Below, one piece after another: positions 33,707-41,247 of a stretch of DNA of 64,000 nt. The stretch covers positions 1 to 64,000 of the forward strand of contig JAIVFH010000137.1 in NCBI GenBank assembly GCA_025765595.1, read 5' to 3'. Position 1 is the first letter of the stretch. Each line of letters opens with the position of its first letter. The stretch is from Obelidium mucronatum. Taxonomy: Eukaryota; Chytridiomycota; Chytridiomycetes; Chytridiales; Chytriomycetaceae. The notes under the pieces are model-generated. The model made no database searches. It was given only the letters and a program-made list of their open reading frames with translations, and was not told the origin of the DNA. A program made the translations under genes and the position numbers.

Positions 33707-36700
33707 ATGGACAAGGAGCAGCCGCCACCGCTCGCACTCTCCTCGCAGGCGCTGTCGCTGCGGATCGACTTTGAGACACGGCGCGTTCTTGTGAGTTTTG
33801 CGCGCTGGTCAACAGAGTCAGACTGACACAACCGCAGGGCCTCGCGACGCTTGTCCTCGCGGCATCGACGCCAGCTGCCGCTGTTCCGGACGCGCTGCGG
33901 CTGCACTGCCGCCAGGCGGGTGTGTTTTCGGTGTTTTCGGTGTTTCCTTCGAACACTGACTTGACCGAACACACAATAACACACTCAACACACACAAAAC
34001 CAAAAACAAAAACAAAAAACAAAAAACAAAGCCGTCACCGCCGCCTTCGTCAACGGCCGCGCCGCTGCCTTTGTGCTCGGCGATCCGCTCGCGGCCGCCG
34101 CCGGCGCGCTCGCCGCCAAGACGCCGGCGAACCACCCCGAGCTGCGCGCCGCCGTCGCAAAGGCAGCCGAGGCGGCCGACGACGACGGCGAGCTGCTGAT
34201 CCACGTGCCGGCAGAGCTGCGCGCGAAAAGCCAGGGCCTGGCGGATCCACAGGCCGAACAGCCGAAAGACGCATTCAGCTCAATCACCGTGCAGATCGAA
34301 TACGAGCTGGTTGATCCGCAAGTCGGCATCCATTTCGTGTTCCCCGACAGCGGAATATCGTCGGCTGTACGTGGAATCATGTTCATCGACCGTAAAATAC
34401 ACTAATATTCCGCCCTTCTTTTGCAGAAAACGCCGTATTTATACACTAGCAATGAAGGGAAAAGCGCTCGATTTTGGATGCCTTGCTTCGATAGTTCATC
34501 GCGAAAAGCCAGTTGGACTGTTGAGATTCTCACCCCTGCAACGTTTGCTGACATAATGGCATCCACTCAACCTCGAAAACAAACGAAAAAGAGCAAGGCG
34601 TTGGCTTCTAAAGAAATTATCGCTCAATGTAACGGATCTCTTGTGGAATGTTTCATGGATCCTATTGAACCTGGCTGGAAAGTAACGCGTTTTGCGTTTG
34701 ATGGATCTGTTTGTGCAAGCAGTATTTTGTTGGCTGTTGGTGCTTTCGGTTTCTATGAATTTGGACAGACTGAAGTTGTTTCAACAAATGCTGCCTCCCT
34801 GAATGTCTCCCAGCCTGCTGCTGCAACGACAGTTGAAGTTCCAGATGAAGATGATAAAGAAGATGACGAAAAATCTGATGATGAAGATGATAAAGAGAAG
34901 GCTGAGGCGACCGGCGACTCAGCTGCGAGAAAGAATGCAACGCGTGGTGTGAAGTGTGAGGCTTTCTTTCCTGACGAGCTGAAGGAAAATGTCCGCGCGA
35001 CTTTAGATTTCTTACCGCAAGTGAGTGGGCATGCACTCTTTCTTTTGGAATTGCCATAATTGATTCGTTCTTCAGGCTATGGAGTTTTATGATCAATTTA
35101 CTGGTTTATCCTTTCCCTTTCCGTCATACAAAATTATCTTTGTTCATGACGCCTCCCTTCCCATTATTATCGGGGCAGGAATGGCAATTTTTAGGTGATT
35201 TCAATTGATTCGCACAGCGTAGATAGTCTTGATGCTGACATATCTTGGCTTCTATAGCACTCATTTGCTACTAGAAGAGGATGATATCGAAAATATATTC
35301 GATTCTCGATATAAGTTCTCGGTTGCTTTAGCATATCAATGGTTTGGGCAATATGTCACGCATCGACATTGGTAAACCCAACACTTTCATAAGTTTTGTT
35401 CCCTGAAATTCTGTGTTTGATGATAGGACTGACTCGTGGTTGAACATGGGATTGGGAAATTATATGGCAGGATTATTTATTCGCAAGCTGTTGGGAAACA
35501 ACGAGTATCGGTATCGATTAAGTGAAGATATGAAACGTGTTGCAGCGATGGATGTGGGACAACTCCCGCTCTGCCCAGCATATCTTTTGAATGAAGAAGG
35601 AGGTGCTGAAACTGATGATGTTCTTTGCACGAAGTATTTCCATCCATCCGATGAGCCAGACTCTTTACGGACAGAGTTTTTGTCCTTGAAGGCTCCGCTG
35701 GTGATTGGGATGTTGGATCAGCGGCTGGGGAAAGGAAATTTGGTTAAAGTCATCAACAAGATTATGATCTCAACAATGAGTGGAGAATTAGAGAACGGGT
35801 TGAGCACAAACCATTTCTTCAAAGTCTGTAGAAAAATTAGCGCAAGTGCTGAACTCAAGAGTTTTGCCGATCAATGGATCTTTGGAAGTGGTTGGTAGAA
35901 TTTGATGATAATTTAAGCATACTCACAAAACTTGATTCTGAAAAGGGTGTCCAAAGTTTAAACTTGGGTTTAAGTTCAGCCGAAAGAAACTGGTTGTGGA
36001 GATAACGATTCATCAGGATAACACAAACAAGAATCACCCTACAGCAACCAAAAAATTTACGGTTTGTCCTTGGGACCCTGATGACACTCCAAATCTTGCT
36101 CAGTATTTAACCCAACACTATATCGCTAGGGTCCATTCATTGTTCGAGTTCACGAACCGAAGGGTATCGCCTATTCTCACCAAATATTTATTGATGAAAT
36201 GGAAAAAGTGGTGGAAGTCCCATACCATACAAAATACAAACGTGCCGGACAGAAGCTCAAGAAACTGCAAAAGATGGGAATAATGACTGGAGCCAATGGC
36301 GGAAAAGCCGATGATGGCGCTGATGATGACGATGACGCCCCACAAGAGTTTCACTCCTCACAGCAACCGCAACCTGGTGCAAACGACGGAGTCAAAGACA
36401 AAGGGAAGCCAGATTTGGATCAGTTTGACCGTCGGTCGTTGGATTGGATTCGGTGGGATCCTGATGGGGATTGGCTGTGTTTGAAGGTTCATGACCAGTT
36501 GAGAAGCATGTGGATTGAGCAATTGGCGAGAGATTTGGATGTTGTGGCTCATCATGAAGCTGTTGTCAGACTGGCATCCATGCCAGATAATCTGACTACG
36601 ATGGCGTTGATGCGAGTGTTGACTGATGAGAGGCATTTTTACCGTGTGAGAATGGAGGCTGCGTATTCGCTTGCCAAGGTATTACTCTTTTTTTAAATGT

Positions 36701-39700
36701 TATTGTGTATTATTTAAAGGTGTTAATTTTTTGTTACAGCTTGGTGTTGATCCTGCGATGGGAGCTCCTTTTGTAAAGCTTGTGAAAGAATTTAACACTA
36801 AGTACTGCTATGAGCGCGCCGCGAATTCAGTGATGACGATTCCAAAGCCAAACGATTTTTCCAATTTCCAAGACTATTTTGTGAAGAAGGTGAATTTGAT
36901 TTTCCTTCAGAAATGGGATATCGCTGAACTTCTGGGATTATAGGCAATGTCTACAGCCTTGGTGACTTATCGCGATGCGGAAAACAAGATCCCTCTTCTA
37001 AACAAAAGGATTGTGTTGGATTTGTTGCGTTTTAACGATAACAGTAAAAATCAAGTAAGGAGGTTTCGATTGCAAAATTCGTTTTGTCTCACCCTTTTTT
37101 TTTCAAAAGTACTCTGATGGTTATTACATTGCCGCGCTAATTAACGCGCTTTGCCACGCAACGATTCCGCAAAAGTTTCGGGAAGCGCAAGCCAAGCCCA
37201 AGGAGGTCAACATGAACGCAGCAGAAGGGATCTTTGAAGAATTTGACTTTGTGGGAAGTGCCCCTGAAGAACCAGACGATCAAGTAGATTTTGGGACCGA
37301 GGAAGAGAAGGCGCTTCTCGTTGCCGCAGTTGCTGAAATTGATCGATACTTGGCCTTGGATCGATTAAATGCGTCCCATCATAACATTGTTACCAGAACT
37401 TGTATTGAGGTTTTGTAGTTTCCCGTCTTTTCTATCGCCAGTTTTCGTGCGATCGATTTATAACTTAATTATATACACATTGTAGGCTAAAATGAAGTGG
37501 ATGCTGGCTGGGTTGCTTCCGATAGACTTGCCCTTCTTCCTTGGTTTTTCTGGGTACTTATTATTCTTGGTTGTTTTGGCAAAGTACTTAACGGTTTTTT
37601 TTTCCTTGATGATTAACAGCTATGGAAACTTTTTTTGTGTGCGAATGACAGCTATAGATTCTCTGTTAATGTTGGATGGATTCTACACCACCGAGATTGC
37701 AAACTACCTGCTTCAGATAGTGGAACAAGATGTGGATATTCGTATCGCTTGCTATGCGGCAAAGGAGCTGTACAACTTTGTTGTCCTTGCGAAAAGTGTT
37801 GGTGTGGATGAGGCTAGGAAAAAGAAACCGAGAAACAATGCCCCTCTGCATACTTGGGCTTCCATCTGTGCGAATATCACGAAAAACGGTTTCTTTTCGA
37901 ACTTGCTGTGGCCTTTGCTAACGTAAGGAAACGCCTTTTTCTTCGTATCGTTTTTAAAATGGGTTTGTCTCTTTATCAGTTCAAGCAACTTGGATTCCCG
38001 AATTCGATTGTATTTGCTTCGGTTTTGTGAAGTAGTGTACAAACCAGTGCCGTTTCATAATGGTGCTGTTGCTGTACCCAAAAAACTTGTCATTAAAATG
38101 CCATCTTTGAGTCTTACTGAGGTTGGATTCCTAGGTGCTCTGAAATAGTAGATGAGACTAAAAGCATTGTTCGAATAGGTGCCTGATGCAATCCCTGTGC
38201 CTCCAAAATCCTCGTCCAAGTCGGCACCAAAAGCCCAGGCTCCAAGACCACCTCCAAAGGCACCAGTGTTCACGGAACCTTTCCCGCCAATCGATCAAAA
38301 GTTTTTGGAAACCGGAAGGAAAGTGATGATGAACATTACAAATCACCCAAGCGCAGCTGCTTTCATGTTGCCTGTGGACGAATCGTTTGCTCCAATGTAT
38401 TTCACGCTCATCAAAAAACCGATGGATATATCCACCACGTCAAAGAAACTCGAAGCAGGAGCCTATAGAAACAATCTCACTTTTCTCTTTTCGGATATCC
38501 AGCTCATTTTTTCCAACTGTTACAAGTACAACACGGATGATTCACCAGTTACCAAACAGGCTCAAAAGCTTGAAAGGTTCTTTAATTCTGAGATCATGCC
38601 GCGGGCCCTGGTTCATGAATTGCCCATCTTGAGTAACGCCATTGAGATTGACGATGATATCATACTTGGAACACCGACGGATACAGTGATGGAAGATGTT
38701 ACACCCGCTCAACCTACATTGCCTAAACCTAAACTTGTTATTCCAATACCGCCAAAACCTGTTGTACCGCCACCAGCGAAACCACCTGTTGTGCAGGCAC
38801 AAGTGTCAGAAAAGCCGTCACCAGTAACTCCCAAGCTGACGTTGCTTCCTCCAAAACCTCATCTCGCTACATCTGCAGCAGCGCCATCTGGAGTAAAACC
38901 TCCTGCGCCTGGCCTGCCACAAAAACCTGCTGTGGCTGAACCGGCTACAGCAGAAAAACCAGTCGCTCTTGTTCCTCCAAAAAGCGCACTTCCTGTCAAA
39001 TTAAGTCCGTCTGTAAGTCCTGCTCCCGTCAAACCGGCAGCTCCAACTGCTAGTCTGCTTCCACCGCCATCCGCTAGACCACCGCCTTCAAAAATACTCG
39101 GCCCGCCACCATCACAAACAGCTAGTGGAACTCCTCCATTACCAAAAGCGATCTTGAAATTGAAACCAGAGAGTGAAATATCTTCAACAGCAACGGCACC
39201 AAAGAGGAAACTGTCTCTTGGTGGTGAAACTCCTCCTCATCCTCCTTCAGCTGGCCTTGCTTCTTCTTCGGCCCCCCCAGTTGCTGCCCGATTGGATAGT
39301 GAAGACTACAAGAAATGCAAAAAGATTATTCGTCACTTGGCTGAACATGAGAAGGCGTATTGGTTTCAAACTCCTGTAAATCAGATCTACTGTTTCCTTG
39401 AAGTCACCTTGATTTTGTGAACTAACTGAATTTTGTGTCTACAGGTGGATCCTGTTGCTTTTAACCTTCCGACATATTTTGACGTGATCAAGGAGCCAAT
39501 GGATTTATCGACTTTGAAAACACTGTTGACTGACAGCAAAATTACAACCATAAAGGAATTCAAGCATGCAGCCGCTTTGATTTTCAAGAACGCCATGGCA
39601 TTTAATGCCCCGTCCACGCAAGTGTATCAGGACGCCCAATTGCTTTTGGATATGTTGAAGACTGAAGTGAGACAATATTTTGGAGACTCTAAAGGAGACC

Positions 39701-40803
39701 GAGGTGGCGCGAGTAGTTCTTCTTCCGGTACAGCGAAAGCGTCTCAACCCCAGGCTCTGCCCGTGAAACCCGTGCAACAGGCGGCACCAGCACCGAGTGT
39801 ATCGAATGTAGATACGTTCAAATCAACAGCCGCAGAACCTGCGATCAAGAAGTTTAAGTTAAAACATGATCCTGGGTCTGTTGGAGGTAGTCCATCGCTT
39901 GTGTCTTCGCATTCTCCTTCTGCGCAAAGTGCACCATCTTCAGAGAGAATGGTGGTCTCTTCTGTTGCTGGGAAAAAGTGTTTGAAAGTTCTTAAAAAAC
40001 TGCAGGTACATATACTTAATTTTTATTGCTGCATATATATATTGGACTATGTTGACTCACGTACCTTTTTTTCCTAGAACAATGCTTTCGGAAAAATATT
40101 TTTGGCTCCTGTTGATCCTGTTGCGTTAAATATTCCCACATATTTGACAGTCATAAAGCATCCCAGTAAGTATAAACGAACGGTTTCTCTGCCGGTTTGA
40201 GTTTATTAAAATGGCAATGTAGTGGATTTGGGTACAATCAACAAGAAACTGGAGAGGGGATCCTATAGAGATCATTTAGGGTTTAAAGCAGATGTAGAAC
40301 TGATGCTTAATAATTGTTTCGTTTTTAATGTACCAGGTATGCTGAGGTTTTTTATATTATATCTTTTGCAACTTAAATAATAATCAAAACTACTTTAAGG
40401 GGATTGGGTTTACAATCAAGGAAAAGGACTAGAAAGCGTTTTTCTGAAAGAATGGCGAGACATTGATTGGGATATCTTGCCAATTCCAGGTGTTGTTCGA
40501 CCTGTCGGCCCAACCATTGAAAAGACATTGACCAAACTTCGGGAGCATCAAAATGCTTTCATTTTCTTGGAACCTGTGGACCCTGTCATCCTACCTGACT
40601 ACTACAAGAGAATCAGAAACCCAATTGACTTGAGTACTATGGCAGAGAAAAACAAACGCGGCGAATACTTGAGTCTGGACGCGTTTGAAAAAGACATGAA
40701 GCTCATGTTTGCAAATTGTTTCAGTTATAATGAGAAGGAGAGTTTGGGTCATAATTCTGGACTTGCCTTGGAAAAGTATTTCAAGCAAATCTTCCGCAAG
40801 TGA
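33707..40803 (+). CDS. TAF2: TFIID subunit TAF2 fused to four bromodomains
   Basis: The N-terminal half (33707 to about 38120) is TAF2: an inactive M1-aminopeptidase fold with FWMPCFDSSSRKASWTVEI, AYQWFGQYVTHRHWTDSWLN and then helical repeats. The zinc-binding HExxH of active M1 enzymes is gone (ALAYQWFG at that place), as usual for TAF2. An acidic insert lies at about 34838-34900. After the TAF2 end (KLVIKMPSLSLTE) a 57-nt intron (38122-38178) joins in frame to VPDAIPVPPK, a Pro-rich linker and four bromodomains: BD1 about 38281-38600, BD2 about 39301-39690, BD3 about 39973-40470 and BD4 about 40510-40803. Each keeps the acetyl-lysine-binding Asn (NCYKYN, NAMAFN, NCFVFN, NCFSYN). The exon carrying BD1 opens without an ATG, which supports one fused protein. 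TAF2 binds the initiator element in TFIID; the bromodomains would add acetyl-histone binding. Confidence 0.85.
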
Positions 40804-40869: not shown

Positions 40870-41247
40870 ATGGCTGACAATCACCAGCCGCCACCTCCAC
40901 CACTTCCTTCAGCACCACCGGTCGCTCCCGCGACGAATCCAAAATTCACACTGCGAAATGGAGTTTTTGATACTTGGGAGCTTGAGGAAAAGGCTCTTTC
41001 GTCCGCGATTTCCAGTGCCGAAAAGACTGCCCTTGTTCGACAACAGATTTGGAAAGGAACCAAGAGCGATCCCATCAGCCAAAACTCTAAATTTGGAAGA
41101 TATACAAACGTTCTCGGACTGATTGGGTATGAAAGATTGCAGATTAAACCTCTGGGACGCGTCGATGTTGAGTCTTCCAAATCAGTTGTGCAAAACGCAC
41201 AGTCTCTAATTGGGAACACCCATTCAGATTGGCGATCGAAGACTTAA
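40870..41247 (+). CDS. Small unrecognised protein, 125 residues
   Basis: An intronless frame from ATG 40870 to TAA 41245-41247. It begins with a Pro-rich segment (QPPPPPLPSAPP) and continues as a mixed charged domain with TLRNGVFDTWELEEKAL and FGRYTNVLGLIGYERL. There is no membrane helix or signal peptide. I do not recognise it. The stop is separated by one base from the start of the next gene on the same strand, so it could share that gene's transcript or form part of it through an unseen intron. An alternative intron at about 41127-41190 (GTATGA...CAG) is possible but does not give a better frame. Confidence 0.55.
   Translation: MADNHQPPPPPLPSAPPVAPATNPKFTLRNGVFDTWELEEKALSSAISSAEKTALVRQQIWKGTKSDPISQNSKFGRYTNVLGLIGYERLQIKPLGRVDVESSKSVVQNAQSLIGNTHSDWRSKT

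Follow-up and report, generated by a model that had tools for sequence, protein, structure and literature searches.

A C-terminal array of four bromodomains in TAF2, a TFIID subunit, of the chytrid Obelidium mucronatum, and its counterparts in other fungi

Here, I describe a gene of Obelidium mucronatum, a chytrid of the order Chytridiales, in which the TFIID subunit TAF2 carries on one and the same polypeptide a C-terminal array of four bromodomains, an array that probably holds TFIID at acetylated nucleosomes. In the usual picture, the bromodomains of TFIID reside in TAF1 (animals) or come in trans with Bdf1 (yeast). As far as sequence can tell, the TAF2-bromodomain architecture is real and well conserved, and the Obelidium gene is an ordinary one within its group.

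The gene occupies positions 33707-40803, plus strand, of the window, that is, of the whole stretch of 64,000 nucleotides of contig JAIVFH010000137.1 that was analysed. It was spliced by hand at GT..AG sites before any protein search, with the junction proposed in an earlier note on this DNA as a guide. The resulting 20 exons form one open frame of 1964 amino acids, whose product is letter for letter P0001, the NCBI hypothetical protein BDR26DRAFT_1012954 of O. mucronatum. Exons 16-20 encode the linkers and the four bromodomains (BD1 to BD4). The features, in window coordinates (computed for the bromodomains), are:

33707..38121, plus strand: exons 1-15, TAF2 core, residues 1-1177, with M1-peptidase-like domains, TAF2_3rd and TPR_TAF2_C (hand splice, Pfam, solved-structure matches)
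38122..38178, plus strand: intron 15, 57 nt, phase 0, between the TAF2 and the bromodomain part, with in-frame stops inside
38179..38304, plus strand: Pro/Lys-rich linker from TAF2 to BD1, without an ATG (hand splice)
38305..38595, plus strand: bromodomain 1, residues 1220-1316, pocket Asn1295 (Pfam, genome scan)
38596..39306, plus strand: long Pro-rich linker, residues 1317-1553, setting BD1 and BD2 237 residues apart
39307..39669, plus strand: bromodomain 2, residues 1554-1651, pocket Asn1630, interrupted by an intron at 39376-39444
39970..40455, plus strand: bromodomain 3, residues 1752-1849, pocket Asn1828, BET-like, exons 17-20
40510..40794, plus strand: bromodomain 4, residues 1868-1962, pocket Asn1941, only 18 residues after BD3
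40801..40803, plus strand: stop codon of the fused gene

A further open frame, at 40870-41244, starts 66 nt past this stop codon and has no match in Pfam.

Beside four bromodomain stretches, Pfam finds TAF2_3rd, TPR_TAF2_C, Peptidase_M1 (50.9 bits) and Peptidase_M1_N in the protein; the Ig-like and TPR domains of TAF2 (PF25316 and PF25577) score 90.5 and 147.9 bits, with a cut-off of 27 each. The active-site motifs of M1 peptidases, HExxH and GxMEN, are both absent from residues 1-1200, and an M1-peptidase-like region devoid of them is a feature of TAF2. Among solved structures, the protein matches Taf2 of 6hqa with an E-value of 1.7e-71 and, with one of 5.1e-90, TFIID subunit 2, presumably human, in entries such as 6mzl. 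Pfam finds no ET domain (PF17035) in the protein, which thus does not show the succession of tandem bromodomains and ET that marks BET proteins, nor does it find PF12157 (DUF3591), the mark of TAF1, which is a separate locus on contig C7. A second, bromodomain-free TAF2 was considered and rejected, the genome scan having located TAF2-specific domains at this locus only. By homology, on which its membership of TFIID rests, the protein is the TAF2 subunit.

Relatives were sought among 5.8 billion proteins with residues 150-1270 as the query. Of these proteins, 7990 were scored as candidates and the best 120 of 136 matches examined, with a slight bias toward bromodomain-bearing matches because the query held about 50 residues of BD1. 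Bromodomains were counted with a profile iterated from these same TAF2 proteins, some counts including partial domains, and Pfam agrees with it in all four proteins checked (P0001, 4 stretches; P0045, 3; P0021, 6; P0026, 4). Fungal groups were assigned from genus names. At least one bromodomain is present in 99 of 110 TAF2 proteins of the named groups and in 101 of the best 120 overall, always in the same order in public annotation, TAF2 domains and then bromodomains. Among the matches listed, bromodomains occur in 16 of 17 chytrids (one with 2, three with 3, ten with 4 and two with 5; the exception, P0014, is marked partial), so that four is the commonest number there (10/17, Obelidium included), in 15/15 Mucorales (seven each with 4 and with 6, and one with 5), in 9/9 Mortierellales (each with 4), in both Endogonales (6 in one; 7 in the other, a low-quality model in which three of the matches are partial), in the single Calcarisporiella (2), and in 56 of 57 basidiomycetes (all with 3, P0075 of Pleurotus pulmonarius among them; the exception, P0093, is only 1117 aa long). 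They occur in none of the nine named ascomycetes and in 2 of the 10 proteins outside the named groups. A second profile search, started from eight bromodomain-free TAF2 rows and aimed at other eukaryotes, gave 853 matches; the best 120 look ascomycete-like or are without a name, and none of the 116 new ones among them bears a bromodomain.

The earlier note had regarded the number of modules as unusually high and the architecture as peculiar to one lineage. Neither view is supported by the counts among the matches listed, the architecture being found in chytrids, in Mucorales, Mortierellales, Endogonales and Calcarisporiella, and in basidiomycetes. On the usual species tree, and for a sample made up of these groups and ascomycetes, the simplest reading of this distribution would be that the array goes back to the ancestor that all of them share and was lost in Ascomycota, the alternative being separate gains.

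The four bromodomains of Obelidium match PF00439 with 289 bits in total (cut-off 21.7), and the E-values of the genome scan (BD4, 1.4e-23; BD1, 1.0e-20; part of BD2, 2.3e-13; one BD3 exon, 6.9e-7) exclude a chance match. Each has the pocket Asn, at residues 1295, 1630, 1828 and 1941, as the earlier note had seen, and the ZA-loop Tyr as well. The TAF2 proteins among the best 120 of 136 matches contain 361 bromodomain matches, of which the 349 nearly complete ones were examined: 346 have Asn in the pocket and three, each of them a basidiomycete BD1, have Ser there, and none has lost the ZA-loop Tyr. The WPF shelf mostly retains Phe alone and reads xxF in all four Obelidium domains, so that these may not match BET domains in affinity or specificity. 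A close pair of bromodomains recurs, with a smallest gap of 11-19 residues in 56 basidiomycetes, 15-17 in 15 Mucorales, 7-46 in nine Mortierellales and 17-72 in 16 chytrids. The modules of the array are predicted to read acetyl-lysine.

A tree of 83 bromodomains over 104 columns, with an unresolved backbone, was built from the bromodomains of 18 of the 120 TAF2 proteins, those of 7 of the 22 bromodomain-bearing TAF1 proteins (Obelidium TAF1 left out) and four from other genes of the genome. In chytrids and in basidiomycetes, each shared bromodomain position forms a group of its own, as do five of six positions in Mucorales plus Endogone, the fifth position being the exception. The last chytrid bromodomain groups with the fourth of Endogone and Mucorales (91/92, below the 95 mark). 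The seven fungal TAF1 bromodomains form one clade (100/99), which sits in a weak group (80/90) with some TAF2 domains of Mucoromycota and Mortierella, and one BET domain joins the last TAF2 domains of Mucoromycota (80/84). Holding the 72 TAF2 rows together in this tree of 83 rows, 104 columns and unresolved backbone costs 4.94 log units (p-AU 0.386); with three BET rows added to them, the p-AU of the constraint is 0.319. A single origin of all TAF2 bromodomains is compatible with these values but not required by them. A profile of five chytrid BD3 sequences gives its top summed-domain scores to polybromo-1 and BRD4. Among single-domain chains, Bdf1, BRD2 and one from Candida glabrata score best, near 91 bits. 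The search with BD1 lists CECR2, GCN5 and BAZ2B after the same multi-domain chains, and that with BD4 lists polybromo-1, BRD4, TAF1 and BPTF. Judged by these profile scores, BD3 is BET-like and nearest to BET bromodomains.

The TAF1 of the same genome is annotated as P0121, with DUF3591 and one bromodomain match of 51.6 bits. Its locus (L018, C7:338500-347500, minus strand) shows frame changes without an evident intron at about 4250-4000 and 2900-2480, which affect DUF3591 as well as the bromodomain, the latter shortly ahead of its Asn motif, and around which P0121 skips; judged from the assembled sequence, they may stem from sequencing error or from decay. The genome scan found no further TAF1 locus. 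On contig C2, and again on C65, an ET match lies close to two bromodomain matches, and both loci are taken as putative BET (Bdf1-like) genes from these unspliced matches. In the C65 locus (L020 2453-3724), the open frame of the second bromodomain also encodes a GATA zinc finger, upstream of the ET match. The only other ET match of the genome is a domain frame on C204 (L021 2225-2797, minus strand), a contig on which the genome scans found neither a bromodomain nor a YEATS match. Other bromodomain exons come in near-identical pairs or triplets, namely L023/L024 (C5, C281), L029/L030 (C130, C95) and L026/L027 (C279 twice, C91), pointing to recent duplication or to haplotypes that the assembly left uncollapsed.

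A lack of bromodomains in TAF1 and in a Bdf1-like gene, for which the earlier note had proposed to look, is thus not what this genome offers, TAF1 matching one and the two BET loci two each. The note's placing of acetyl reading in TAF2 is supported in so far as four bromodomains lie in one gene model with TAF2, but not in the sense that such reading would be confined to TAF2. Among relatives of this TAF1, 22 have one bromodomain, 98 have none and none has two (best 120 of 161 matches, candidates being limited by the query length to about 470-1490 aa). TAF1 and TAF2 were paired by eye in 14 species, Physocladia being left out for its partial TAF1 record. The six basidiomycetes have three bromodomains in TAF2 and none in TAF1; the eight chytrids have two to four in TAF2, and in TAF1 one in five species and none in three. 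Some of these zeros could be due to truncated gene models. The idea that the bromodomains of TAF2 replaced those of TAF1 would therefore fit basidiomycetes better than Obelidium.

It might be argued that TAF2 and a bromodomain protein are two neighbouring genes wrongly merged by gene prediction, which is very improbable. The donor of the joining intron is weak-looking (its boundaries are GTTGGA..AATAG), and TAF2 could stop within it: if left unspliced, intron 15 stays open for eight codons (VGFLGALK) before two stop codons follow. Against this, 57 nt leave little space for a terminator and a promoter, and the bromodomain exons lack a start of their own, since the frame of exon 16 is closed directly upstream by the stop codon at 38176 and its first Met, at 38326, lies only inside BD1. 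Moreover, the junction is common to P0001-P0006, the closest chytrid relatives, in which the block preceding the intron, KKLVIKMPSL..E, aligns (six of the eight chytrid proteins aligned, P0004 and P0006 being near-copies of each other in this region; it is not clearly aligned in P0007 and P0009). Also, TAF2 and at least one bromodomain share one protein in the 101 of the best 120 relatives counted above, whose gene models are predictions that may carry the same errors. I rejected a false fusion because the start codon is missing, the gap measures 57 nt and the junction is common to these relatives. Both the in-frame joining of the TAF2 end by this intron to a Pro-rich linker and bromodomains, and the absence of a start from the first bromodomain exon, had been proposed from the letters alone, and both are confirmed at the level of sequence. 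The length of intron 15 is a multiple of three, yet it holds tandem in-frame stops, and its retention would end TAF2 just before the bromodomains.

As to function, two studies of TFIID report that the TAF2 lobe contacts promoter DNA in the solved complex and that the C-terminal tail of yeast Taf2 anchors Taf14, whose YEATS domain reads acylated lysine (PMC6220335, PMC9177701). In Obelidium, the tail of TAF2 would be placed at the downstream-promoter lobe, where its bromodomains would hold TFIID on acetylated nucleosomes beside the promoter, with the long Pro-rich linkers extending their reach and BD3-BD4 working as a close pair; the one bromodomain left in TAF1, and perhaps BET proteins too, would take part in the acetyl reading. 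That the TAF2 bromodomains are real but redundant, TFIID relying for acetyl reading mainly on TAF1 and BET proteins, is unlikely: Obelidium TAF1 does still match one bromodomain and the genome has two BET loci, but the pocket residues of the TAF2 domains are almost invariant, basidiomycete TAF1 is without a bromodomain while TAF2 keeps three, and the Obelidium TAF1 bromodomain is crossed by frame changes in the assembly. It is quite unlikely, too, that the array binds acetylated non-histone proteins or serves as an assembly surface instead of reading nucleosomes. Bromodomains can bind non-histone targets, and the reduced WPF shelf would suit such a role; on the other side, BD3 is closest to BET domains, which bind acetylated histones, and TFIID works next to nucleosomes. 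It is acetyl-histone binding within TFIID that I infer for the array.

In a wider and tentative reading, fungal TFIID may ancestrally have read acetyl-lysine via a TAF2 array made of a close tandem pair and lineage-specific extra copies, TAF1 keeping one bromodomain or none by lineage, while ascomycetes would have lost the array and use Taf14 in trans on the Taf2 tail; without the array, Taf14 and Bdf1 may both be used in trans there. Most fungal TFIID biochemistry comes from ascomycetes, the usual models. If a conserved array in the other fungi is true, the yeast model would miss a main chromatin-reading device of fungal TFIID, the reader function would reside on different TFIID subunits in different lineages, and the TAF2 tail would be one site of TFIID served by different acyl-lysine readers. 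The pattern at the level of the family is of moderate interest.

The review by Antonova et al. 2019, which lay outside the literature search and whose abstract reportedly mentions that TFIID has gained and lost epigenetic readers, may already describe TAF2 bromodomains in fungi. In the sources consulted in part, fungal TAF2 bromodomains are not described as such, the nearest account being that of a Cryptococcus Spt7 search which matched CNAG_03273, named the TAF2 ortholog, via its bromodomain region (PMC12844337). In a table of oomycete proteins, TAF1 is listed with a bromodomain and TAF2 without one (PMC4030286). The earlier note had allowed that the architecture might be already common and described: common it is in public domain annotation, and, as for its being described, a TAF2 of Plasmodium has been named a bromodomain protein.

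That protein, PfTAF2 (PfBDP6), is counted among the predicted bromodomain proteins of Plasmodium falciparum (PMC9039026, PMC9010790), although "TAF2" is absent from the main text of the review cited for it by the latter (PMC8638923). Its likeness to Obelidium TAF2 lies, by published listing, in both being TAF2 proteins classed with bromodomain proteins, Plasmodium being a distant lineage. Other fungal TAF2 proteins differ from that of Obelidium in the number of modules, with three in basidiomycetes, four in Mortierellales, four to six in Mucorales, two to five in chytrids and none in nine named ascomycetes among the matches listed. The double bromodomain of metazoan TAF1 is likewise a close pair of acetyl-lysine readers built into a TFIID subunit, but a different one, and the seven fungal TAF1 bromodomains in the tree form their own clade, TAF1 having one or none among the matches listed. 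Yeast Bdf1 and other BET proteins share with Obelidium TAF2 the kinship of BD3, whereas the latter has no ET domain and would act in cis, not in trans. Along the same line, the yeast Taf2 tail with Taf14 likewise brings an acyl-lysine reader to the Taf2 C-terminus (PMC6220335, PMC9177701), but as a YEATS protein docked in trans, where Obelidium TAF2 has bromodomains in cis.
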